Below are positions 14,270 through 28,997 of a stretch of DNA of 33,710 bases, piece by piece. How positions within the stretch are numbered: the stretch's first letter is position 1; every line of letters starts with the position of its first letter. Under the pieces are notes generated by a model. That model saw only the letters and a program-made list of their open reading frames with translations. It was not told the DNA's origin and searched no databases. The stretch comes from Nocardioides sp. (GTDB lineage Bacteria > Actinomycetota > Actinomycetes > Propionibacteriales > Nocardioidaceae): assembly GCA_025964985.1 (NCBI GenBank), contig JAOPXU010000236.1, forward strand, positions 1 through 33,710. The letters are read 5' to 3'. The position numbers and the translations under genes were made by a program.

Positions 14270-14372
14270 GCTGGTACTTGGCCGATGAAACCGGTACTTG
14301 GCCGATGAAATTTCGTCGGCCGAGCAAGGGATTCACCGGCCGGCCGGTGAAGCCCGAGGCCAGTGGGACTCA
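14270..14372. repeat. Two-hairpin intergenic repeat, copy 2, ending on the last stop codon of the MAA operon
   Basis: Same unit as copy 1 with point differences; internal exact 18-nt tandem GGTACTTGGCCGATGAAA at 14273 and 14293; palindrome TTCACCGGCCGGCCGGTGAA. Confidence 0.85.
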
Positions 14373-15221
14373 GACCAGGCCCAGCAGCGACGCGGTCGGC
14401 AGCGCCCGCTCGAGGGCGGCGGCCAGCATCTCCGGCCGGTCGGCGTACCAGGCGAGGTGGGCGGCCTCAACCGAGGCGACCGGGACCGGCTCCCCCGCCA
14501 CGACCCAGTCGGCGGTGGGCTCGTCGGGCAGGCCGTGGGCGGCGACGACCTGGGGCAAGAGCGGCGCGTGGATCGACATCAGCAGCGGCCGTCGTACGCC
14601 GGGCGGGCGCGGGGGCAGGCCGAGGGCCTCGCGCAGCCGGGCGGCCAGCGGCTCGAGGACGGTGTTGCCGGGGTGGTTGATCGTGCGCATGGAGTCGGCG
14701 ACCGGACGGGCGAGCAGGTCGCTGACGCGGACGGTGCCGTGGAGCTGCTCGCGCCGCTCAAGCTCGGCGACCGAGGCAGCGGCGACGGCCCGCACGGCTT
14801 CGACGGTCAGGGGCGCGTCGGCCCGGCGTCCGGATGCGGCCAGGACGGTGCGGACGTCGTGGTAGGGCACGGCCGGCGGGTCGGGGCGCTCGAGTCCGGG
14901 CGGGTGGACGAGCAGGTGGTGGGGGTGCAGGCCGGCGTAGCGCACCGGCGGGACCAGCGCCGTGCGCGCGCCGGGCGGCAGGTGGGCGACCAGCTGCTCG
15001 GTGCCGACGGGCAGGCCGCGGTAGTCGGCGCCGACGGGCTGGCTGACGAACAGCTCGGTGCGCCCGAGGAGCTCGACGAGCGACGTCACGTCGGCCGGCT
15101 CCAGCTCGTGCAGCGGCGGGACGCGCACGGTGTGGACGTCGTCGCCGTCGAGGAGCAGCCGCAGCGACTCGGCCTGGCAGTTGCCGACGACGACCAGCGT
15201 GGGCAGATCGACGGCGGTCAC
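14370..15221 (-). CDS. WcbI-type polysaccharide biosynthesis (putative acetyltransferase) protein
   Basis: GTG 15221; TLVVVGNCQAESLRLLL signature, FVSQPVGADYRGLPVGTEQL, RYAGLHPHHL, HPGNTVLEPLA. Confidence 0.75.
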   Translation of the reverse strand: MTAVDLPTLVVVGNCQAESLRLLLDGDDVHTVRVPPLHELEPADVTSLVELLGRTELFVSQPVGADYRGLPVGTEQLVAHLPPGARTALVPPVRYAGLHPHHLLVHPPGLERPDPPAVPYHDVRTVLAASGRRADAPLTVEAVRAVAAASVAELERREQLHGTVRVSDLLARPVADSMRTINHPGNTVLEPLAARLREALGLPPRPPGVRRPLLMSIHAPLLPQVVAAHGLPDEPTADWVVAGEPVPVASVEAAHLAWYADRPEMLAAALERALPTASLLGLV

Positions 15222-16495
15222 GGGGCCCAGCCGCCCAGCCAGGCCTCCAGGACGAGGTCGGGGCGCCACGGCGTGAGGTGGGTGTCTGGCGAGGGATGGG
15301 GCGAGAGCAGCTCGGGCCGGCCCCAGCGCTCGGCCCGGCGCTCCAGGCGCAGGTCGGTGAGGGTGCCGACGCCGAGGTCGCGGACGCCGTGACCGTCGAG
15401 GCCCTGCAGCCCCTCGAGCGCCGCCTGCCAGTCGGCGGCACGGGCCAGGGCGCCGCACCGCAGGTCGAGCCGCAGACGGGCGACGTCGGGGTGGGTGTCG
15501 ACGACGCGGGGGTCGTCGCCGACCAGCGCGCGCTGCTCGTGCCGGTCGCGGGGCAGCAGGATCCGCGCGGTCGGGACGGCGGCCAGCAGGCTGTCGACGG
15601 TGGCCAGCAGCTCGGCGCCGCGCAGGTGGGGCGCGCAGGTGACGACCAGGTCGGCCGGTCCGCGCAGCAGCCCCCGCCAGCCGGTACCGGGGGCGGCGAC
15701 CCGGTCGGCCACGGCGCTGGTCTCGGCGAGCAACGCGTCGTCGCACCGCTCGCGCGCACCGGCGTCGAGCCCGTCGTGCCAGGCGACCGCGTCGCGCCGG
15801 TGGGCCAGCAGTCCCCCGGCCAGCCAGGCGCGGTGGGCGAGCTCCCAGTCCTCGCCGCCGTAGGTCGTGAACGACGGGTCGCAGCCGCCCAGCTCGTCCC
15901 ACCACCAGCGCGTGCAGCCGAGCACGGCCGAGATCACGTAGCGGTGGCTGGTGTGGTCGGCGTGCAGCAGGTCCTGCGTGCGCCGGTAGGCATCGCCCAG
16001 CCAGGCCGGCTCGGGCAGCTCGTGGTGCGGGCCGGCGTCCTCGACGGCCGCGTCGGTCGGCACGCCGGCCAGGGCGGCGTGGCGCCGGCGTCCGACCACC
16101 AGGCTCTCGGGCAGCCGCGACGGCAGGTCGACCAGGGCCTCGACGAGGCCCGGCTCGGGCGTGGTGTCGGCGTCGAGCAGCACCAGCAGCTCACCGGTGG
16201 TCGCGGCGACGCCGAGGTTGCGGGCGGCCGCAGCGCGGAACCCGTCGTCCTCCTGCCGCACCAGCCGTACGCCGTCCGGCACCGTGGGCGCGACGCGCGA
16301 GCCGTCGTCGCTCACCACGACCTCGAACGGCAAGCGCGTCTGACGGCCCAGGGCGTGCAGGGTGCGGGCGAGCTCGTCGGGCTGCTCGTAGTGGGTGACG
16401 ACGACCGAGACCCGCAGGTCGCGCGTGCCCGGCTCGGGCGGGGCGGCGAGGTCCCAGCGGTTGCCGGGCACGGTGTCGCCGAACGGCGGCCTCAC
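15218..16495 (-). CDS. Family 2 glycosyltransferase with C-terminal galactosyltransferase-like region
   Basis: GTG 16495; RVSVVVTHYEQPDELARTLHALGRQTRLPFEVVVSDDGS, LLVLLDADTTPEPGLVEAL, FTTYGGEDWELAHRAWLAGG; 4-bp overlaps on both sides. Confidence 0.85.
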   Translation of the reverse strand: MRPPFGDTVPGNRWDLAAPPEPGTRDLRVSVVVTHYEQPDELARTLHALGRQTRLPFEVVVSDDGSRVAPTVPDGVRLVRQEDDGFRAAAARNLGVAATTGELLVLLDADTTPEPGLVEALVDLPSRLPESLVVGRRRHAALAGVPTDAAVEDAGPHHELPEPAWLGDAYRRTQDLLHADHTSHRYVISAVLGCTRWWWDELGGCDPSFTTYGGEDWELAHRAWLAGGLLAHRRDAVAWHDGLDAGARERCDDALLAETSAVADRVAAPGTGWRGLLRGPADLVVTCAPHLRGAELLATVDSLLAAVPTARILLPRDRHEQRALVGDDPRVVDTHPDVARLRLDLRCGALARAADWQAALEGLQGLDGHGVRDLGVGTLTDLRLERRAERWGRPELLSPHPSPDTHLTPWRPDLVLEAWLGGWAP

Positions 16496-17526
16496 CGCGT
16501 GTCCCGCCACCAGGCGCCGTAGGCCCGGGCGGTGTCGTCGAGGTGAGGACGCAGGTCGGTGCCGGGCCGCGCCCAGGTCGAGCCCGGTCGGAGCAGGGCC
16601 GCCGCGACCGCGTCGGCGAGGGTGTCGTCGCGGAACAGCGTGACGGTGTCGGGGCGCAGGGCGGCCACCTCGCGGGCGTAGGAGCCGTCGCGCACGAGCG
16701 GGCGGCGTCCGGCGGCGAGCCAGGTGTTGAGGCTGCCGGAGGCCGAGACGTTGCGGTGGGCGACGACCGGGACCGCGACCGAGCGCAGCCGGTGGGTCAC
16801 CTCGTCGTCGTCGAGGTGGCCGGTGACCTCGATCGGCACGTCGCGGGCCCCGGCCAGCCGCCGGATGTCCTCGACGTCGTCGTCGTGACCGGGTGCGGCA
16901 CCGCCGACGACGAGCACGCTCGCCGCGGTGCCGGTGCGCCGCAGGGCGGCGGCGGCCCGCACGACCTGCCGGTGGCCCTTGCCGGGGTAGACGAACCCGA
17001 ACACCCCGAGCACCGGCGCCGGGTCGGCGCTCGCGCCGTCGCCGGGCTGCATGCGGGTGGGCCGGGGCACGGGCAACGGGATCGTCGTGCCGACCGCGTC
17101 GGCGTCGCACCAGCGCTCGACGAGCAGGCGCTCGTGCTCGGAGTTGGTCGTCCAGGCACGCACCGCCCGCACGATGCGGCCGTACGCCGCCGCGCGGGCC
17201 GCGAACACCGGCCCGTCGGTCGGCTGCGGCACGTCGTGCAGCGTGACCGTCAGCGCGACGTCGCGGGCCAGCTGCTCGACCCGTGCGGCTGCAGCGTCGG
17301 GAGTCGCGCCGAGCAGCCGGTCGGTGAGGTGGAGGTGGACCGGGTCGTCGAGCGACTGCAGCCCGGCCACGTCGGTGACGACGCGCGCGCCGCACGCGGC
17401 GGCCACCTCGGCGGCGTACCGGGAGACCCCGTGGCGGGCGTCGCCGAGCACGAGGTGGACGGGGACCCGGTGGGCGGAGGGGACGGTGGGGCGCCTCGAC
17501 CGGAGTCCGACTGGCTGGCGGCTCAC
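16492..17526 (-). CDS. Glycosyltransferase family 1/4 (GT-B)
   Basis: GTG 17526; VHLVLGDARHGVSRYAAEVAAACG, APVLGVFGFVYPGKGHRQVVRAAAALR, VPVVAHRNVSASGSLNTWLAAGRRPLVRDGSYAREV. Confidence 0.8.
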   Translation of the reverse strand: MSRQPVGLRSRRPTVPSAHRVPVHLVLGDARHGVSRYAAEVAAACGARVVTDVAGLQSLDDPVHLHLTDRLLGATPDAAAARVEQLARDVALTVTLHDVPQPTDGPVFAARAAAYGRIVRAVRAWTTNSEHERLLVERWCDADAVGTTIPLPVPRPTRMQPGDGASADPAPVLGVFGFVYPGKGHRQVVRAAAALRRTGTAASVLVVGGAAPGHDDDVEDIRRLAGARDVPIEVTGHLDDDEVTHRLRSVAVPVVAHRNVSASGSLNTWLAAGRRPLVRDGSYAREVAALRPDTVTLFRDDTLADAVAAALLRPGSTWARPGTDLRPHLDDTARAYGAWWRDTR

Positions 17527-18305
17527 CCGTACGACGCGACCATGCCGCGGTGCATCACCCGGTCACCGACGACGCCGGCGTGGTCGGCGCGGTGCAGGAC
17601 GCACGCGTTGTCCCAGACCACCAGGTCCTCGGGCGCCCAGGCGTGGGCGTAGGTGTTGTCGGGGCGGGTGGAGTGCGCGAGCAGCTCCTGCACGAGCGCG
17701 TCGCCCTCGGCCCGGTCGAGCCCGCTCACCGACCGGCAGCGCGCCGGCGTGGTCAGGTAGAGCGCCTCGCGGCCGGTGACGGGGTGGGGGCGAAGGATCG
17801 GGTGCTCGGCCTCGGTCTCGCCGTCGCCGGGCTCGACGCCGGTGACCACGTGGGTGATCGTGCGGCCCTCGACGCGGCGGCGCAGGTCGTCGGGCAGCGT
17901 CTCGGCGGCGCGGTACTGGTTGGTGAACTGCGTCGCCCCGCCCTGCGCGGGCACCGTGACCGCCCGCAGCGCGGTGTAGGACGGCGGCCGGCTGACGTAG
18001 CTGGTGTCGACGTGGAACGAGCTCTTCGGCGGGGCGCCGGAGTCCCAGCGGCCGACGTTGCTGATCACGTTGAGGTCGGGGTGGCTGTCGAGCGGCGTCT
18101 CCCCCTCGGTGAACGCCAGGTCACCGAAGCCGCGCAGGAACGCCAGGAACTGGTCGTCGTCGAGCACCTGGCCGGGCAGCACGGCGACACCGTGCTCGGC
18201 GAGCAGCCCACGCAGGTCGGCGACCAGCGCGGTCGGGTCGTCGGCGACCTGGACGCCGCTCACGCGGACGCCGACGGGGTCGAGGATGTCGGTCTGCACG
18301 GTCAT
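17523..18305 (-). CDS. TauD/TfdA family Fe(II)/2-oxoglutarate dioxygenase, candidate MAA tailoring enzyme
   Basis: SSFHVDTSYVSRPPSYTAL (HxD), PAQGGATQFTNQYRA, VVWDNACVLHRADH distal His, RVMHRGMVASYG (2OG Arg); 1-bp overlap with mysD stop. Confidence 0.9.
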   Translation of the reverse strand: MTVQTDILDPVGVRVSGVQVADDPTALVADLRGLLAEHGVAVLPGQVLDDDQFLAFLRGFGDLAFTEGETPLDSHPDLNVISNVGRWDSGAPPKSSFHVDTSYVSRPPSYTALRAVTVPAQGGATQFTNQYRAAETLPDDLRRRVEGRTITHVVTGVEPGDGETEAEHPILRPHPVTGREALYLTTPARCRSVSGLDRAEGDALVQELLAHSTRPDNTYAHAWAPEDLVVWDNACVLHRADHAGVVGDRVMHRGMVASYG

Positions 18306-19351
18306 CACCTCTCGAGGTCGGGGACGGGAACGGGTTCGGGGACGACGTGGGCGAGAGAAGCCTGCAACAGCGCCGCCAGCGGGATCCCGGCGGCCTCGGC
18401 CATCACGACCACCACCGAGGTCGGGGCGAAGGAGCAGTAGAGCGAGGCCTCGAGGAAGAACGGCGTGCCGGCCGGGTCGACGCGGAAGTCGAAGAGGCCG
18501 TGGTGGCGGCAGCCGAGGGCGTCGTAGGCGCGGAGCGCGGCCTCGTGGACGAGGGCGGTGAGCGGGTCGTCGACCGGGACGATCCAGGCGTGCGCGGCGT
18601 CCTTGGCGACCAGGCCCAGGTCGCCGGAGTCGTCGCGGCGCAGCTTGTCGTCGTGGTCGCGCACCGGCTTGGTGGCCGCGTCGACGGCGTACTCCTCCAG
18701 CGGCAGGCAGACCAGCACGTCGCCGACCTCGACCACGCCGCACCGCACCTCACGACCCAGCTCGACGTAGGTCTCCACGACCGCCCGGTCACTGTGCTCG
18801 CAGGCCGAGCGCACGGCGTCGTCGTACGCCGCCGGCTCGCGCACCAGCGTCACGCCGAGCGAGTTGTCGGCGTCGGCCGGCTTGACGACCACGGGCAGGT
18901 CGAGGAGGAGCGGGTCGCCGGGGCGCACGACCTGCGAGGCCGGTACGGCGACGCCGGCCGCGGCGACGACCGCGGAGGCGCGCGGCTTGTCGGCGCCCAG
19001 CGCCATCACCTCGGGCGCGTTGCCGACCCACGGGACGCCGAGCAGGTCGAGCAGCCCGCGGTAGGTCGTCATGCCGGGGCGGCAGAACATCTGCGGCAGC
19101 GCGGCGTCGACGTCGAGGTCGGCCAGGTGGGCGACGGCCTCGGCAAAGGTCAGCGCGGGGGCGGCGGCCAGCGCGGCGTCGTCGAGCGAGGCCGGGAAGC
19201 GCCAGGCGCCGCCCGGGGAGACGTGGGCGACGACGTGGTCGTGCTGGGCGCCGCCAGCACGGATCGCGTCGAGGCAGCCGCGGGCGTAGAGCCGCGACAC
19301 GTCGTCGAGCAGCGGGTCGACGGCGGAGCCGGTGAGGTGGAGCAGGCGCAC
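18305..19351 (-). CDS. mysD: D-Ala-D-Ala ligase-like mycosporine-like amino acid synthase (MysD)
   Basis: LHLTGSAVDPLLDDVSRLYARGCLDAI, WRFPASL, ALPQMFCRPGMTTYRGLLDLLGVPWVGNAPEVMA, NSLGVTLV, ELGREVRCGVVEVGDVLVCLPLEEY, GCRHHGLFDFRVDP; closely resembles cyanobacterial MysD from memory. Confidence 0.92.
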   Translation of the reverse strand: MRLLHLTGSAVDPLLDDVSRLYARGCLDAIRAGGAQHDHVVAHVSPGGAWRFPASLDDAALAAAPALTFAEAVAHLADLDVDAALPQMFCRPGMTTYRGLLDLLGVPWVGNAPEVMALGADKPRASAVVAAAGVAVPASQVVRPGDPLLLDLPVVVKPADADNSLGVTLVREPAAYDDAVRSACEHSDRAVVETYVELGREVRCGVVEVGDVLVCLPLEEYAVDAATKPVRDHDDKLRRDDSGDLGLVAKDAAHAWIVPVDDPLTALVHEAALRAYDALGCRHHGLFDFRVDPAGTPFFLEASLYCSFAPTSVVVVMAEAAGIPLAALLQASLAHVVPEPVPVPDLER

Positions 19352-19352
19352 G

Positions 19353-20666
19353 TCAGTCCCCCGCCGGCTCGACGAGCTTGCCGATGTTGACGTCGACCTT
19401 GAGCCAGGGCCGGCCCGCGCGCAGGTTGCCCCACAGCAGCGACGGCAGGTGCAGGTGGTGCAGCGCGAGGAACGGCAGCGGGTCGTGGCCGTCGAGCACG
19501 GCCTCGGTGCCGCCCGCGATCGTGCGCAGCCGCCCGGGGGCGGTCGAGGGGTGGCGCAGGGCCTGCGACAGCTCGTGGTGCAGCCAGTACGTCGGGCGCC
19601 CGCCGACCGGCGGCTCGACCGCGGCGGCGCCGTCGTCGAGGTAGGCCCCGGCCACCTCGGGGCGACCGGCCAGCAGGGTGATGGCGGAGTGGGTGCGCGG
19701 GTTGCACTCGATCGCACGGACGACGCCGTCGGCGTCCTCCATGAAGTCGAACGACACCTGGCCGGTCAGGCCGTGGGCGGAGACGAACCGCTCGACCCAG
19801 GCCCGGATGGCCGGGTGCTCGACGTGCTCGTAGGTGAGCTGCCAGGCCGAGGACCGGCAGCAGACGTAGACCTGCAGCCGGCCGTCGCGGGCGGTGCCGT
19901 GGGTGCACCACTCGGTGCCGCGCAGCAGCTCCTGCAGGATCCACGGCTGCTCGGGCGAGATCGGCAGGTCGCGCACGAAGTCGGCGGTCTCGGCCGGCGT
20001 GGGGCGGGGCAGCGGCGTCAGGTCGAGGCGGCGCACCGGGTCGTAGGGGATGCTCTTGAGCACCCACGGCCCGGGGTGGGCGGCGAAGTCGAAGTCGAGC
20101 ACCTGCTGGGGATCGGTGATCCGGTGGGTGACCGGCACCGCGAGCCCGACCGCGGCGGCCATCTCGGCGAACGCGTGCTTGTCATCGACGCGGCGCAACG
20201 TGTCGGTGTCGAGGTGGACCACCTCGCAGTGGCCCTCGAGCCGCTCGGCCGCCTGCGCCTCGGGCAGGCTCGACGCGGGGCTGGAGACCGGCACCCAGAC
20301 GTCGACGTCCTCCTCCTTGACGATGCGCAGCAACGCCTCGGCGTAGTCGGGCGACGTCGGGTCGGGCACGACGTGGAACGCGTCCACGGCGTTGGAGAAG
20401 CGGTGCCCCGTCCAGCGGTAGCGGGCGGTCTCGACCAGCACCACCCGGTGGCCGGCGGAGTGCAGCAGCCGGGCCAGCACGAGCGCCTTGGTCATCTTGG
20501 CCCCGCTGACCAGGACCGTGCGCCGCGCACCCGGCTCGGGTGCCGCCAGCGCACGCTCGCCGCGGCGCAGTACGGCCGCCCCGACGAGCAGCAGGTTGAG
20601 CGGCAGCGTCGCCTCCAGCGCCACGATCGCGGCGAGGGACTTGAGGCGGGCGGCGGTGGGGGTCAC
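19353..20666 (-). CDS. mysC: ATP-grasp mycosporine-glycine synthase (MysC)
   Basis: GTG 20666; VLVSGAKMTKALVLARLLHSAGHRVVLVETARYRWTGHRFSNAVD, VLKSIPYDPVRRLDLTPLP, GQVSFDFMEDADGVVRAIECNPRTHSAITL, VDVNIGKLVEPAGD; matches Ava_3856-type proteins from memory. Confidence 0.95.
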   Translation of the reverse strand: MTPTAARLKSLAAIVALEATLPLNLLLVGAAVLRRGERALAAPEPGARRTVLVSGAKMTKALVLARLLHSAGHRVVLVETARYRWTGHRFSNAVDAFHVVPDPTSPDYAEALLRIVKEEDVDVWVPVSSPASSLPEAQAAERLEGHCEVVHLDTDTLRRVDDKHAFAEMAAAVGLAVPVTHRITDPQQVLDFDFAAHPGPWVLKSIPYDPVRRLDLTPLPRPTPAETADFVRDLPISPEQPWILQELLRGTEWCTHGTARDGRLQVYVCCRSSAWQLTYEHVEHPAIRAWVERFVSAHGLTGQVSFDFMEDADGVVRAIECNPRTHSAITLLAGRPEVAGAYLDDGAAAVEPPVGGRPTYWLHHELSQALRHPSTAPGRLRTIAGGTEAVLDGHDPLPFLALHHLHLPSLLWGNLRAGRPWLKVDVNIGKLVEPAGD

Positions 20667-21448
20667 GCGACGCGCCGGACCAGGGTCACGCCGTCCCGCA
20701 ACGGCACCAGCACCTGCTCCACGCGCTCGTCGGCGGCCAGGCGGGCGTTGAAGGCGGCGATGGCCGACCCGTTGCTCGAGGGCGCCAGCGCCGCCCACGG
20801 CTCCCCCTGCAGCAGGGTGTTGTCGACCGCGACCACGCCGCCGGGGGCGAGGAGGTCGAGGTCGAGGACCGTGTCCAGGTAGCCGGCGTAGCCGGCCTTG
20901 TCGGCGTCGACGAAGACCAGGTCGAACTGCTCCCCCGCGTCGGCGAGCTGGCACAGGGTGGCGGCGGCGTCACCGACGCGTACGTCGACGAGCGCCCCCG
21001 CGGTCGCCGAGGCGAACGCGCCCCGGGCGACGGCAGCGGCGTGCTCGTCGAGCTCGCAGGCGACCAGGCGGCCGTCCGCCGGCAGGGCCTCGGCCATGGC
21101 GAGCGCCGAGTAGCCGGTGAACATCCCGACCTCGAGGACCCGGCGGGCGCGCGTCATCCCGACCAGCATCCGCAGGAAGGCGCCCTCGACGTGGCCCGAG
21201 AGCATCTCCTGCTCGAGCCCGGCGTCCCAGACCTCGGCGCGGGTGCGGACCTCGAGCGCGTCGAGGTCGTGCGAGGCCGGCGTGGTGCAGCGCCCGACGT
21301 AGTCGTCGAGCCCGGCGACCAGCGCCCGGGCGCGCGCCAGGTCGGCACGCACGTCGGGGTCGACGCCGTCGAGCCGGGCCTCCACGGAGGCCAGCAGGGC
21401 GGCGGCGATCCCGATCGGCGTGACCGGCCGAGCGGTGGCGGTCGTCAC
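20663..21448 (-). CDS. mysB: O-methyltransferase of MAA biosynthesis, DDG to 4-deoxygadusol (MysB)
   Basis: GTG 21448; [85 protein letters not shown]; matches Ava_3857-type proteins from memory. Confidence 0.95.
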
Positions 21449-22659
21449 GACTCGCGGGCGGTGTACTGCTCGACGCCCTCGCCGCCGCGCGGGTAGCCCG
21501 CGCACACGGCCTTGTGCACCTCGAGGATCTGCGTGAGCTCCTCGACGGTGAGGTCGTTGACGAAGCGGCACGTGCCGATCGGGGCGGGCACCGCCGCGCG
21601 CAGGAGGCCGTCGCGGGTCTGCATGATCGACGGGGTCGCCCGCTCCAGCAGGTCGCCGGTGAAGAACGGGCTGTCGATCGCCAGGCCCACCGAGCTGAAG
21701 AGCCCGAGCACCCGGTCGCGCTCGGCGGTGCTGATGTAGCCGCGCTGCTCGGAGATCGTCGCCGAGAACGCCATGTCGACGCTGATCGCGTGGCCGTGGA
21801 ACAGCGGCGGGTCGGGCGTCAGCTCGAGCGTCGGGCTCCAGGTGTGGCCGTAGGCGATGACCCGGTCGAGGTCGATCTCGTGGAGGTTGGGCACCTCGAG
21901 CTCGAGCATCGTGTGGATCGCGTCGTAGGTGATCCGGTCGGCGACCTCGCGCAGGTGCTCGGACCCGACCGCGTGGCCGAACGACGTCGTCAGCAGGTCG
22001 TCGGCGTACTTCTCGAGCGACTCGAAGATCTCGAGGTGCGAGACCGTCGCGATCTTGATGATCTCGGCGATGCCGTTGCGGACCTGGTCGACCGGCAGCG
22101 TGCGCAGCAGCGAGAAGTCGAGGAAGACCTTCTTCGAGGCGTGGTAGGCGCCGAGGCGGTTCTTGTGCTTGCCATGGTTGGCGCCGACCTTGATCGAGAC
22201 GCTCGCGTCGATGAGGCCGATCAGCGTCGTCGGGATGCGGATGTAGTCGGTGCTGCGCTTGTAGGCAGCGCACGCGAACCCGGCCACGTCGGTGGTCAGG
22301 CCGCCGCCGACGACGAGCACCCGCTCCTTGCGGTTGAGGCCGAACTCGGCGAACGCGTCGACGATCTTCTCCAGCGTGCGCAGGGACTTCGCCGTCTCCG
22401 CGATGCGCACGGGGACGACGCTGAGCTCGATCCCGTGGGTCCGGAAGTAGGTCGTGGCGGCGTCGCCGTGCAGACGCAGGACGTTCTCGTCGACGACCAT
22501 CAGGCAGCGGCCCTGGTCGCGGAACGTGTCGGCGAGCTCGGTGTTGTCGACGTCGAAGACGCCGGCGACGTACTCGAGCGTGTAGTCGATCTTCTCGTAG
22601 GCCTCGATGCGGAAGGTGGTGTCCGTGGCGGTGAGGCGGGCCGTGGGATTCGTCGTCAT
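21445..22659 (-). CDS. mysA: Sugar phosphate cyclase: desmethyl-4-deoxygadusol synthase (MysA, DHQS superfamily)
   Basis: ATG 22659; [102 protein letters not shown]; matches Ava_3858-type DDGS from memory. Confidence 0.95.
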
Positions 22660-23321
22660 CAGACGGTCGCGGCGGCGCGCAGGTCGGTCAGCTCGAGCGC
22701 CTCGACGCGCGGCGTGGCCCCGAAGTCGTGGGTGACCGTGTTGCCGTTGGGGAACGCCACCACCGGTACGCCGGCCGCGCGGGCCGACTCGACGCCGCCC
22801 AGGTTGTCCTCGATCGCGACGCAGTCGGAGGCGTCCTCGCCGAGCTGCTGCAGGGCGTAGCTGTAGGCCTCGGCGTCGGGCTTGCGGGCCCCCACCTTGG
22901 AGACGTCGACGACCACGTCGAGGTCGGCGAAGGAGACCTTGCCGGACAGCGCACGGCCCAGCGCGGCCACGTTGTCGGCCGACGTCGTGGTGACCAGGCC
23001 GAGCTTGTAGCCCTCGGACTTCGCGGCCTCGATGGTGTCGACGACGCCCTCGCGCGGCTCGATCTCGGTGCGGGCCAGCGTCTCCTGGTAGATCTTCGAC
23101 TTGGTGGCGTGCACCGCGTCGGCGTCGACCTCCTCGCCGCGGTCGGCGGCGTAGGCCGCGACCCGGTCGCGACCGCCGCTGGCCTCGAGCAGGCCGGCGT
23201 ACTCCTCCTGGTCCCAGTTCCAGTCGAGGCCGTGCTCGGCGAACGCGGCGTTGAACGCGTCGCGCTGGATCTCGGAGGTGTCGGCCAGGGTGCTGATGGA
23301 GCCGAACAGGATCGCGGTCAT
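22659..23321 (-). CDS. HAD-IA (beta-phosphoglucomutase-like) fold protein with degenerate motif I
   Basis: [36 protein letters not shown] replaces FDxDGTL; motifs [15 protein letters not shown] and [16 protein letters not shown] retained; 1-bp overlap with mysA. Confidence 0.85.
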
Positions 23322-24386: not shown

Positions 24387-25421
24387 CTAGGTACCCACTG
24401 GGCGCGCGAGTGCGTTGACCGCTGCGCCGAAGACCGGCGGCAGCGCCTGTGCCGCGGGCACGACGGCGCCGCGGATCCGGCGGGGCGTGGTGGCGGCGAC
24501 GAGCCCGCCGGTCAGCCAGCGGTAGCGCCGGGTGAGCCGGCGCCAGTCGGCCTCGTAGGCCTGGGGGTCGTCGACGGCGATCGCGCGGACGGCGGCCCCG
24601 GCCTGTCCCAGCGCCAGCGCGACGCCCTCGCCGGTGAGCGCGTCGACGTAGCCGGCGGCGTCGCCGACCAGCAGCACCCGACCCGCCGTACGCCGCCGCG
24701 CGCCCTGGCGCAGGGGTCCGGCGCCGCGCACGTCGCTGGCCCGCTCGGCGGCCGCGAGGCGCTCGACGAGCTGCGGGAAGGCGGCGAGGTGGTCGTCGTA
24801 GGAGCGCCGGGTGGTCGAGAGCACGGCGACGCCGACGAGGTCGGCGGCGACCGGGGTCACGTAGGCCTCGGCGTCGCGGGCCCAGTGGACCTCGACGTGG
24901 TCGGTCCAGGGCGCGAGGGCGTAGTGGCGGCGCTGTCCGTAGCGGGCGGGCCCGTGGTGCTCGCGGTCGAGGCCGAGCGAGCGGCGCAGGTGGGAGTGCA
25001 GGCCGTCGGCCGCGACGACGTAGCGCGCCCGGCGGCCGTCGATCTCGACGCCGTCGGCGTCCTGGCTCATCCGGCGCACCGGCGCCCGGACCACCTCGAC
25101 ACCGGCCGCGGCGACGGCCTGGTGGAGGGCGGCGTGCAGCACGGTGCGGCGTACGCCGCGCCCGGGGCCCTCGCGGAACGCTGCGGTGACCTGTCGGCCC
25201 GGCGCGCAGTAGGTGATCCCGGCGATCGGGTGCCCGGCCGGGTCGACGCCGATCTCGGCCAGCGCGGCAAGGGCACCGGGCATGAGCCCCTCGCCACAGG
25301 CCTTGTCGATGACGCCGCTGCGCGGCTCGAGCACCTGCACCGACAGCCCGGCGCGGGCGGCGTGCAGGGCGGTGGCCAGGCCCGCGGGTCCGCCGCCGGC
25401 GACGATCAGGTCGAGGGTCAC
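24387..25421 (-). CDS. FAD-dependent oxidoreductase (geranylgeranyl reductase/aromatic hydroxylase-like)
   Basis: GTG 25421; DLIVAGGGPAGLATALHAARAG, ACGEGLMPGALAALAEIG, RVLLVGDAAGYVDALTGEGVALAL. Confidence 0.85.
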   Translation of the reverse strand: MTLDLIVAGGGPAGLATALHAARAGLSVQVLEPRSGVIDKACGEGLMPGALAALAEIGVDPAGHPIAGITYCAPGRQVTAAFREGPGRGVRRTVLHAALHQAVAAAGVEVVRAPVRRMSQDADGVEIDGRRARYVVAADGLHSHLRRSLGLDREHHGPARYGQRRHYALAPWTDHVEVHWARDAEAYVTPVAADLVGVAVLSTTRRSYDDHLAAFPQLVERLAAAERASDVRGAGPLRQGARRRTAGRVLLVGDAAGYVDALTGEGVALALGQAGAAVRAIAVDDPQAYEADWRRLTRRYRWLTGGLVAATTPRRIRGAVVPAAQALPPVFGAAVNALARPVGT

Positions 25422-25939
25422 GCGGGCAGTCCTGCCAGGGCCTGGTTCTCGACGCGGATCCGGACGACGAGCAGCCCGGCGTTGACGACGGTGAAGACGA
25501 GCGCGGTGATCCACGCGCCGCCGACCAGCGGCAGGGCGACGCCCTCGACGACGACGGCGACGTAGTTGGGGTGGGACAGGAAGCGGTAGGGACCGCTGGT
25601 CACCGGGGCGAGCCCGGGCACGACGATCACGCGGGTGTTCCAGCGCGGGCCGAGCGTGGTGATGCACCACCAGCGCAGCACCTGGCTGGCCACGGCCAGG
25701 GCCAGCATCGACCCGACGAGGAGGGCCGGCGGGTCGGGCCGGCGCACCCACACCTCGACGAGCGCGCCGAGCAGGAAGCCGGTGTGGAGCACGACCATGA
25801 ACGGGAAGTGCTCGCGGCCGGTCTCGACGCCGCCGCGGGCGAACGACCAGGCGGCGTTGCGCTTGGAGACCACCAGCTCGGCCAGGCGCTCGACGCCGAC
25901 CAGCAGCACCACGACGGTGAACAGGACCTCGACGCTCAT
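25418..25939 (-). CDS. Isoprenylcysteine carboxyl methyltransferase (ICMT) family protein
   Basis: LAELVVSKRNAAW, LGPRWNTRVIVVPGLAPVTSGPYRFLSHPNYVAVVVEGVALPL; 4-bp overlap with FAD enzyme. Confidence 0.85.
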   Translation of the reverse strand: MSVEVLFTVVVLLVGVERLAELVVSKRNAAWSFARGGVETGREHFPFMVVLHTGFLLGALVEVWVRRPDPPALLVGSMLALAVASQVLRWWCITTLGPRWNTRVIVVPGLAPVTSGPYRFLSHPNYVAVVVEGVALPLVGGAWITALVFTVVNAGLLVVRIRVENQALAGLPA

Positions 25940-25957
25940 CGGGTGATCATGCCCCCG

Positions 25958-27031
25958 TCACGCGCGCAGCAGCACGAGCTCGGAGCAGAAGCCGGGCCCC
26001 ATGGCGAGCATCAGCCCGTAGGAGCCGCGCCGCGGCGGGTGGTCGGCGAGGGTGTCGGCGAAGACGTGCAACACCGACGCCGACGACAGGTTGCCGATGC
26101 GCGACAGGGAGTCCCAGGTGACGCCGAGGGCCTCGCGCGGCACCTCGAGGGCGTCGGCCATGGCCTCGAGCACCTTGGGGCCGCCGGGGTGGGCGACGTA
26201 CCACTCGATGTCGGCGCGGGTCAGGTCGTGCTGGGCCAGGAAGCGGTCGACGTCGCCGCCGACGTAGTGGCGCACGAGGTCGGGGACGCTGCTGTCGAGG
26301 ACGATCTTGAGGCCGCCGGCGCCGACGTCCCAGCCCATGGTGCGCTCGGAGTCGGGGTAGAGGCGGCTGGTCGCGGCGAGCACCTCGGGCTGCACGCCGC
26401 GGTCGGGGTCGAGCATCATCGCGGCGCGCTCGGCGCCCACGGCGACGACGGCGGCAGCACCGTCGCCGAAGAGCCCGCTGGCCACGAGGTTGGCGATCGA
26501 GACGTCGTCGCGCTGCAGCGTGAGCGAGCACAGCTCGACCGACATCAGCACCGCCACGGCGTCGGGGTGGCCGACGAGGTAGTCGTGCAGCCGGGCGACG
26601 CCGGCCGCACCGGCGACGCAGCCGAGGCCGACGAGCGGCACCCGGATGACGTCCTCGCGCAGGCCGATCGTGGCCGCGACGCGCGCCTCGAGCGACGGCA
26701 CGGCCAGGCCGGTGACGGTGGCGCTGATGATCAGGTCGACGTCGGCCGGGGCCAGGTCGACGGCCTTGAGCGCGTCGACCACGGCGCGCGAGCCGAGCGC
26801 GACGCCGGCCTCGATGAAGGCGTCGTTGGAGGCACCGAAGTCCGCCAGCCCGGCGTAGTCCTCGAGCGGGAGCGCCGTGTGGCGGGTCTTGACGCCGGCG
26901 TTGCCGTGGAAGCGCTCGACCACGCGGCGGTTGACCTTGGCGCTCATCATCCGGCTGATGAACGATTCGGTGATCTCCTCCTGCTGGTAGCGGTGCTCCG
27001 GCAGGACTCCGCGGACGGACAGCACGTGCAT
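25958..27031 (-). CDS. Type III polyketide synthase
   Basis: Catalytic Cys VPLVGLGCVAGAAGVARLHDYL; ANLVASGLFGDGAAAVV; His WYVAHPGGPKVLEAM; Asn SRIGNLSSASVLHVF. Confidence 0.93.
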   Translation of the reverse strand: MHVLSVRGVLPEHRYQQEEITESFISRMMSAKVNRRVVERFHGNAGVKTRHTALPLEDYAGLADFGASNDAFIEAGVALGSRAVVDALKAVDLAPADVDLIISATVTGLAVPSLEARVAATIGLREDVIRVPLVGLGCVAGAAGVARLHDYLVGHPDAVAVLMSVELCSLTLQRDDVSIANLVASGLFGDGAAAVVAVGAERAAMMLDPDRGVQPEVLAATSRLYPDSERTMGWDVGAGGLKIVLDSSVPDLVRHYVGGDVDRFLAQHDLTRADIEWYVAHPGGPKVLEAMADALEVPREALGVTWDSLSRIGNLSSASVLHVFADTLADHPPRRGSYGLMLAMGPGFCSELVLLRA

Positions 27032-27033
27032 GG

Positions 27034-28173
27034 TCAGGACTCCTTGGTGGACACGGTGGCGCGGGAGGTGGCGGCGCCGACGAGGGACCGGGCGAGCCCG
27101 GCGGTCAGGCGTGGAGTGATGCGGCCGCGGGCCAGCCCGAGCTCGACGAGGTCGTCGAACACCCGCTGGTCACGTGCCGATGCTCGCAGGCCCGCCTCGA
27201 GCACCCGGCTGGAGCGGCACAGCCGGGCCGCCGCGGCGGTGTGGCGCAGGTGCCACGACAGGATCGGCTTGGTGGCCTCGCGGTGGCATCGCCCGGCGCT
27301 CGACGGGTCGCCGGCCCCCAGAGCAGCCGCGGCGGCGCGGCCGGCGGCGATGCCGGTGGCGACGGCGTAGAAGATGCCCTCGCCGGTCATCGGGTTGATC
27401 AGCCCGGCGGCGTCGCCGACGAGCAGGACCCGGCCGTCCGAGGGGTGCCAGCGCGCCGACGACAGCGGCAGCTGGTGGCCGACCCAGTCGACGCCCGCGC
27501 CGGTGCTGCCGGGCAGGAGCTCCTCGAGGCGCTGCATCAGGTGGGCGCGCGTCGGCGCCTGCCGCTTCGGACGCAGGAGCTGGCCGTAGCCGACGTTGGC
27601 GAGGCCGTCGCCGCGGTCGAAGGACCAGGCGTACGCCGGCTGCTCGCCCCCGGCGAAGACGATGAGCTGGTGACCGCGCTGCTCGACGGGCGTCGGCGCG
27701 TAGCCGCGGATGGCCAGGGCGGTGCGCCCGCGCGGCTGCCCGAGCGAGCGCCGGATGACGGAGTGGGCGCCGTCGGCGCCCACCACGACCGCGTCGTGGG
27801 GCAGCTCGGCGAGGTCCTTGACCCGCCGCTGCTCGAGCCGCGCGCCGGCGGCCTGGGCGGCCTCGACGAGCCGGGCGTCGAGCACCTGGCGCGGCACGAC
27901 GTAGGCCGGCCGCTGCATCTCCCGGACGACGTCGCGCGGCCCGCGCCGCAGGTGCAGGTGGGTGACGGGCGTGCGGTCGTCGAGCAGGCCGGTGACACCG
28001 ACCTCGGCGAGCAGGTCGAGCACGTGCGGCGCGACGCCGTCGCCGCAGGCCTTGTCGCGCGGGAACGTCGAGCGGTCGAGCAGCAGCACGTCGAGCGACG
28101 GGTCGACGGACAGGGCGCCGAGCGCGGCGGAGGCCCCGGCCGGACCGGCGCCGACGATCACGAGGTCGCTCAT
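27034..28173 (-). CDS. Geranylgeranyl reductase family FAD-dependent oxidoreductase
   Basis: LVIVGAGPAGASAALGAL, RSTFPRDKACGDGVAPHVLDLLAEVGV, GRVLLVGDAAGLINPMTGEGIFYAVATG. Confidence 0.88.
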   Translation of the reverse strand: MSDLVIVGAGPAGASAALGALSVDPSLDVLLLDRSTFPRDKACGDGVAPHVLDLLAEVGVTGLLDDRTPVTHLHLRRGPRDVVREMQRPAYVVPRQVLDARLVEAAQAAGARLEQRRVKDLAELPHDAVVVGADGAHSVIRRSLGQPRGRTALAIRGYAPTPVEQRGHQLIVFAGGEQPAYAWSFDRGDGLANVGYGQLLRPKRQAPTRAHLMQRLEELLPGSTGAGVDWVGHQLPLSSARWHPSDGRVLLVGDAAGLINPMTGEGIFYAVATGIAAGRAAAAALGAGDPSSAGRCHREATKPILSWHLRHTAAAARLCRSSRVLEAGLRASARDQRVFDDLVELGLARGRITPRLTAGLARSLVGAATSRATVSTKES

Positions 28174-28997
28174 CCGGCGGCCACGAGCAGGACGACGTCG
28201 ACCAGGGCGATGACGACGGCCGCGCGGAACGGCGTACGGCCGCTGCCGGTGGCGGCGACCAGGGCCAGCACGGCGACCAGGCCGAGCGCGGCCCAGGTGA
28301 GCGGGTGGGGGTCGCCGGGGCCGAGCACCGCGAGCGCGGAGGCGCCGGCCAGCACGACGGCCGCCGCGACCCGCGAGGCCTGCTCGCCCATGCGGTGCGG
28401 CAGGCCGCGCACGCCGGTGCGCGCGTCGTCGGCCAGGTCGGGCAGCGTGTTGAGCAGGTGGGCGCCGACGCCGAGCGAGGCACCGGCGGCCATCAGCCAC
28501 CAGGCCGGCCAGGCCCCGTCGGGACCGGCGAGCGAGACGACGGCGGGCAGGCTGCCGAAGGCGACGGCGTAGGGCAGCCACGAGAGCGCGGTGGCCTTGA
28601 GGCCGAGGTTGTAGGCGTGGCCCATGCCGACCAGCAGGACGAGGTGGACCAGGGCGCTGCGCCAGCCCACGGCCACCGACAGCACGACGCAGGCGACCGC
28701 GGCGGCGACCAGGCAGCCGCGCACCAGCGCCGGGTCGAGCCGGCCGTCGGAGAGGGGCTTGTCGGTGCGCCCGACCACGGCGTCGCGGCGGGCGTCGAGC
28801 AGGTCGTTGCCCCAGCCGATGGTCAGCTGGCCGGAGAACACGGCGGCGGTGACGACGACCCCGGTCGTGAGGTCGAGGTCGGCGGCCACGGCCAGCAACG
28901 CCGCCAGGGTGGTGACGGCCATGCAGGGGCCGCCGTGCGCGGCCACGGCGAGGGCGGGCAGGGTGCCGCCCGTCGTCGGGACCGCGTCGGTGGTCAC
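28170..28997 (-). CDS. UbiA family prenyltransferase
   Basis: GTG 28997; first Asp motif WGNDLLDARRDAVVGRTDKPLSDGRL, second motif NTLPDLADDARTGVRGLPHRMG; multi-TM. Confidence 0.88.
   Translation of the reverse strand: MTTDAVPTTGGTLPALAVAAHGGPCMAVTTLAALLAVAADLDLTTGVVVTAAVFSGQLTIGWGNDLLDARRDAVVGRTDKPLSDGRLDPALVRGCLVAAAVACVVLSVAVGWRSALVHLVLLVGMGHAYNLGLKATALSWLPYAVAFGSLPAVVSLAGPDGAWPAWWLMAAGASLGVGAHLLNTLPDLADDARTGVRGLPHRMGEQASRVAAAVVLAGASALAVLGPGDPHPLTWAALGLVAVLALVAATGSGRTPFRAAVVIALVDVVLLVAAG

Follow-up and report, generated by a model that had tools for sequence, protein, structure and literature searches.

The locus examined here raises the question of what a TauD/TfdA-family Fe(II)/2-oxoglutarate (2OG) oxygenase does in the midst of the genes for a mycosporine-like amino acid (MAA). 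The window, that is, the whole 33,710-nt stretch of Nocardioides DNA that was analyzed, comes from a fragmented genome (426 contigs, 89.7% complete, 6.2% contamination) and contains a tight operon in the order HAD-mysA-mysB-mysC-mysD-TauD-GT4-GT2, in which all genes run in one direction and are separated by near-zero or negative gaps (Table 1). The TauD gene is the sixth. Its ATG shares one base with the mysD stop (TGATG, reverse strand of 18303-18307), and the reverse strand across this junction reads ...GAGAGGTGATGACC..., with the TGA stop and the ATG overlapping by 1 nt. At the other end, the TauD stop is overlapped by 4 nt by the GTG of the downstream GT4-type gene (GTGA, 17523-17526). Farther upstream in the operon, the probable GTG start of mysC overlaps the mysB stop. 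An initial sequence-only reading of this DNA had delimited the same TauD reading frame and had noted the 1-nt overlap with mysD, and both are confirmed. Judged by its sequence, the TauD gene is a genuine oxygenase gene and an integral part of the Nocardioides mycosporine cluster.

Table 1. Genes of the mycosporine operon and adjoining genes in the window, listed by position.
Feature	Position	Strand	Characteristics
WcbI-type polysaccharide biosynthesis protein	14370..15284	(-)	third gene of a GT4-GT2-WcbI run shared by five Nocardioides-group clusters
Family-2 glycosyltransferase (GT2)	15218..16489	(-)	start approximate; possible operon extension
Group-1-type (GT4) glycosyltransferase	16492..17526	(-)	Glyco_trans_1_4, below gathering cut-off; GTG start
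TauD/TfdA-family Fe(II)/2OG oxygenase	17523..18305	(-)	260 aa, ATG start; H98-x-D100, H238, R249, R253
mysD, D-Ala-D-Ala-ligase-like ATP-grasp (mycosporine-glycine amine ligase)	18305..19351	(-)	Pfam Dala_Dala_lig_C 1.6e-19; GTG start probable
mysC, ATP-grasp ligase, Gly onto 4-deoxygadusol	19353..20666	(-)	50-53% identical to its counterpart in the Nostoc sp. HK-01 MAA cluster
mysB, O-methyltransferase	20663..21448	(-)	Pfam Methyltransf_3 1.6e-50; probable GTG start overlaps mysA stop
mysA, dehydroquinate-synthase-like sugar phosphate cyclase	21445..22659	(-)	Pfam DHQ_synthase 2.6e-31; 62% to the Nostoc HK-01 cluster
CbbY-like HAD, first gene of the operon	22659..23321	(-)	FGSISTL instead of FDVDGTL; stop overlaps mysA ATG by 1 nt
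Type III polyketide synthase (25958-27031) and two FAD-binding oxygenases	24387-28581	(-)	upstream of HAD, transcribed in the direction of the operon

The protein had been proposed to be TauD-type rather than PhyH-type, and the profile searches agree. Pfam TauD (PF02668) matched with E=2.4e-56 and 192 bits (gathering cut-off 27), covering positions 9-266 of the 267 of the profile, and was the sole family match, so that the PhyH family (PF05721), the hallmark of MysH, was not among the matches. The description of the protein as non-homologous to MysH was nevertheless too strong, because TauD and PhyH enzymes, though only distantly related, both belong to one Fe(II)/2OG double-stranded beta-helix superfamily. 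BLASTP of the TauD protein against the PhyH protein of Nostoc HK-01 found no significant full-length similarity and no substantial alignable length. A structure prediction from two sequences was of too low confidence for use (pLDDT 32, pTM 0.23).

The active site can be compared residue by residue with that of E. coli TauD. In the alignment, H98, D100 and H238 fall on H99, D101 and H255, T125 falls on T126, R249 on R266 (the 2OG arginine), and R253 on R270. All six residues are invariant across the intact copies from MAA clusters; thus, the HxD motif, the distal His and the 2OG-binding Arg are retained, as anticipated, and the active site is intact by sequence. E. coli TauD and TfdA of pJP4 accordingly resemble the window protein in fold family, in the HxD...H pattern and in the equivalents of T126, R266 and R270. 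However, both lie outside the MAA clade, in which the column of TauD H70, a contact to the taurine sulfonate, is variable, and which carries signatures of its own, among them FTxGE and, behind the distal His, a DH pair.

Enzymes of this kind have been linked to MAAs before. In 2023, a TauD/TfdA dioxygenase encoded in MAA clusters of cyanobacteria was named MysI, and a convergent origin of palythines via MysH and MysI was argued (PMC10510106). The GATOR-GC article of 2025 (PMC11888242) describes HAD and TauD/TfdA genes as conserved among the MAA clusters of actinobacteria and suggests a MysH-like function. The TauD-type counterpart of MysH that the sequence-only reading presented as a candidate had therefore been anticipated twice: the window TauD is a further member of an already described enzyme group, and its interpretation in terms of palythines is not new. 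PMC11888242 also states that cyanobacterial clusters are devoid of TauD, which conflicts with MysI, and cites the unpublished expression of a Rhodococcus fascians D188 operon containing HAD and TauD, which yielded shinorine, palythine and palythine-serine; this was expression of the whole operon, in which the effect of TauD was not isolated.

The Pseudonocardia alni region of that article and the R. fascians D188 operon agree with our window in enzyme family, HAD, core genes, phylum and the MysH-like proposal, whereas our window differs in its origin from a Nocardioides-group genome and in the GT4, GT2 and WcbI genes that follow TauD. MysI of Nostoc sp. UHCC 0926 is likewise a TauD/TfdA dioxygenase found with MAA genes, for which palythine formation by glycine hydroxylation was proposed (PMC10510106). 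However, it belongs to a mysF-mysI-mysE cluster with a Gly-specific MysE NRPS and a second methyltransferase, MysF, and was proposed to act on C3-Gly, whereas the window TauD belongs to a HAD-mysABCD operon with a ligase-type MysD and glycosyltransferases and has no MysF/MysE neighbours; this comparison is one of gene context. MysH of Nostoc linckia NIES-25 shares with the window TauD the Fe(II)/2OG chemistry, the proposed reaction class and the proposed palythine products, but belongs to the PhyH subfamily, as does the PhyH protein encoded in the MAA cluster of Nostoc HK-01, which matches PF05721.

We consider it probable that the protein is an Fe(II)/2OG-dependent, palythine-forming oxygenase that would remove the C1-Gly carboxymethyl group of shinorine as glyoxylate. 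In the proposed sequence of events, MysA, MysB, MysC and MysD would make shinorine, with Gly at C1 and Ser at C3. The TauD protein, holding Fe(II) by H98/D100/H238 and 2OG by R249/T125, would then hydroxylate the carboxymethyl group that stems from glycine at its alpha-carbon, and collapse of the hemiaminal would release glyoxylate and leave the free amine, palythine-serine; by the same reaction, mycosporine-2-glycine would be converted to palythine. This N-dealkylation of a carboxymethyl group would follow the logic of TfdA, which O-dealkylates 2,4-D with loss of glyoxylate, and would provide a TauD-fold route to the products of the cyanobacterial PhyH-type MysH. That shinorine is the likely substrate is suggested by MysD. 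In cyanobacterial MysDs, residues of the omega loop decide between Ser and Thr, and L-A favours shinorine (PMC11983340); by this rule, derived from cyanobacterial enzymes, the L-A found in the window and in nearly all relatives points to shinorine, whereas Nostoc HK-01 MysD has F-S. The proposal is also backed by the unpublished whole-operon expression from R. fascians and by the published proposals for MysI and MysH. A palythine-forming role of the TauD-type protein, as first suggested from the letters alone, is thus plausible, if putative, and coincides with the MysH-like proposal in PMC11888242.

Alternatively, the protein might carry out a different oxidation of the finished MAA, namely hydroxylation, desaturation or oxidative decarboxylation at the C3 Ser/Thr/Gly (including a MysI-like action on C3-Gly), the product of which would not be a simple palythine; this appears unlikely. 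Family membership settles the cofactors, not the regiochemistry, and the protein has a weak NCBIfam match to ScoE, a TauD-family enzyme that acts on a carboxymethylamino group with another outcome. The position proposed for MysI (PMC10510106) points the same way. On the other hand, palythine-serine, which the R. fascians operon yielded together with palythine according to PMC11888242, requires loss of the C1-Gly carboxymethyl group, and MysD, with its L-A pattern, appears to prefer Ser.

To place the gene in a wider context, we assembled MAA clusters by genome searches with mysA and mysC, supplemented by fetched regions. L021 and L109 are one locus and were counted once, and L055-L061, with mysA matches of 33-42% and without mysC, were taken as other sugar phosphate cyclases and excluded from the count. 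TauD is present in 32 of the 35 actinobacterial clusters, the window included; one of these copies (L054) is broken by undetermined bases and was counted as present but left out of the tree. Altogether, the window and 31 further clusters fit the GATOR-GC type (TauD with DHQS, O-MT, ATP-grasp and HAD). The three clusters that lack TauD (L053, L115 and L121) all come from one genus (g9). No replacement oxygenase follows mysD in the ORFs read in L053 and L115, and the TauD-family matches left in the genomes G084 and G535 are weak or belong to the housekeeping branch, while G551 has none. No MysH-like PhyH gene was found at the actinobacterial MAA loci; conversely, in the Nostoc HK-01 cluster the mys genes are accompanied by a PhyH gene but not by TauD. 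This PhyH-family gene (L131, on a plasmid, 16304-17107 (-), PF05721), whose annotation reads hypothetical, is located between mysC and mysD in the reverse orientation and is likely mysH.

In most clusters TauD follows mysD, whereas in seven (L046, L054, L113, L114, L117, L122 and L124) it lies between mysB and mysC; its start and stop codons usually overlap or nearly overlap those of adjacent mys genes across the clusters. The position thus varies while membership in the operon is kept, so that the linkage survives rearrangement. A place between mysB and mysC might suggest that the oxygenase acts early, before MysD, on 4-deoxygadusol or mycosporine-glycine. We regard this as very improbable, since the gene is more often found after mysD with overlapping codons, since gene order is a weak guide to the order of steps, and since trimming of mycosporine-glycine would deprive MysD of its normal substrate.

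Two further variants of the cluster were observed. L048 (G401) has the order HAD-mysA-mysC-mysD-TauD without mysB, and the best mysB match elsewhere in its genome reaches 40% over part of the query; its product may have a demethylated core, or another methyltransferase may be used. L126 (G780) and L127 (G908) belong to two deep actinobacterial lineages; their mysA shows only 37-38% identity and, unlike in the other clusters, lies upstream of HAD, so that a cyclase of another type may have taken its place.

The association of TauD with mysC extends to whole genomes. Among 298 genomes of the family, 25 have a strong mysC, 22 an MAA-type TauD, and 21 both (Fisher p = 3e-27, shared ancestry uncorrected); among 398 genomes of the phylum, all six with TauD are among the seven with a strong mysC (p = 1e-12, again with shared ancestry uncorrected). 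One of the four family genomes with mysC only, G577, has a contig that ends at 2.4 kb. In the one family genome with TauD only, G661, what is left of the gene is a C-terminal relic about 113 residues long (L163, G661:C67, 9488-9826); it has no mys neighbours and is probably the remnant of a lost MAA cluster. A contig scan with the TauD protein found one relative, in Nocardioides sp. 1609 (L021). Among the matches listed in plasmid searches, TauD-like proteins reached at most 38% identity near full length, while a single broken Devosia gene reached 43% over part of its length. In the annotated plasmid records inspected, the neighbours are transporters, regulators or catabolic genes, with no mys genes; the Ensifer record is unannotated.

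In a careful tree of 64 proteins, the 31 MAA TauDs were split from the 33 others, which include E. coli TauD and paralogues from the host genomes, at 100/100 support, and a quick tree to which TfdA and a PlaO1 fragment had been added gave the same split (SH-aLRT 99). Hence the protein falls outside the sampled housekeeping TauD branches. The stem of the MAA clade is long (~1.6-2.3 changes per column), so that no sequence can safely be singled out as its closest relative outside the clade. Since the MAA-cluster TauDs form a single clade apart from the host and E. coli TauDs and almost never occur without mys genes, they are, on phylogeny and linkage, not the housekeeping taurine enzyme. That a taurine/alkylsulfonate or other housekeeping dioxygenase, as the Pfam TauD match and a weak similarity to taurine dioxygenases might suggest, came to lie beside mysD by chance is extremely improbable in view of this separate clade, the co-occurrence with mysC, the absence of sulfonate transport genes among the identified neighbours of TauD in the window, the variable H70 column, and a score of 108.6 bits against the cut-off of 313 for the taurine dioxygenase equivalog (NCBIfam NF007104).

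The first gene of the operon encodes the companion HAD protein. HAD phosphatases need the motif I DxDG(T/V). The best PDB match of the HAD protein is CbbY (4uat/4uar, E=3.5e-35), which has FDVDGTLAET as motif I, whereas the window HAD is without both motif-I aspartates. In all 34 aligned cluster HADs, G stands for the nucleophile and I for the second Asp (GSIS in 33, GSIG in one), whereas DMDGT or DNDGV is kept in two further HAD genes located close to such clusters. The residues of motifs II-IV (TTT, KP, EDN-GG) are largely kept. With both aspartates lost throughout, a phosphatase mechanism is unlikely, and we infer that the companion HAD is a conserved pseudo-phosphatase, still folded, that may bind a sugar phosphate. 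This loss of both catalytic aspartates (DxDG to GSIS/GSIG), read from the alignment, is what the present analysis adds; the available part of PMC11888242 makes no mention of it. The HAD is also present in the TauD-less L053 and L115 and thus tracks the core genes, not TauD. A combined scenario can be offered tentatively: Actinobacteria may have recruited a TauD of their own, independently of MysI and MysH, for cleavage of the C1-Gly of shinorine, and the pathway would include an obligate, dead CbbY-like HAD that serves as a sugar-phosphate-binding partner or a regulator of MysA and not as a phosphatase.

Downstream of TauD, the GT4-type gene is kept in four other clusters. A GT4-GT2-WcbI block (14370-17526 (-) in the window) follows TauD directly in the window, L045, L105, L106 and L108. 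The GT4 enzyme MysG1 of Nostoc glycosylates palythine-Thr (PMC11378024); by analogy, glycosylated MAAs are possible products of the clusters with this block. On the other side of the operon, a ZIP-like transporter gene lies between HAD and the block of the type III polyketide synthase and FAD-binding oxygenases, and this polyketide block also adjoins the MAA cluster in L106.

Palythines are UV absorbers of commercial interest. If the palythine-forming role is true, the compact TauD-type protein of Actinobacteria, whose gene adjoins that of the ligase, would add a second tool for their production, from a different subfamily, and the Fe(II)/2OG enzymes would offer an instance of functional convergence. 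The 35 clusters, with three natural losses of TauD, are candidates for a comparison of MAA products with and without the enzyme. For the HAD protein, the question shifts from the role of a phosphatase to why a dead phosphatase is kept in every cluster.
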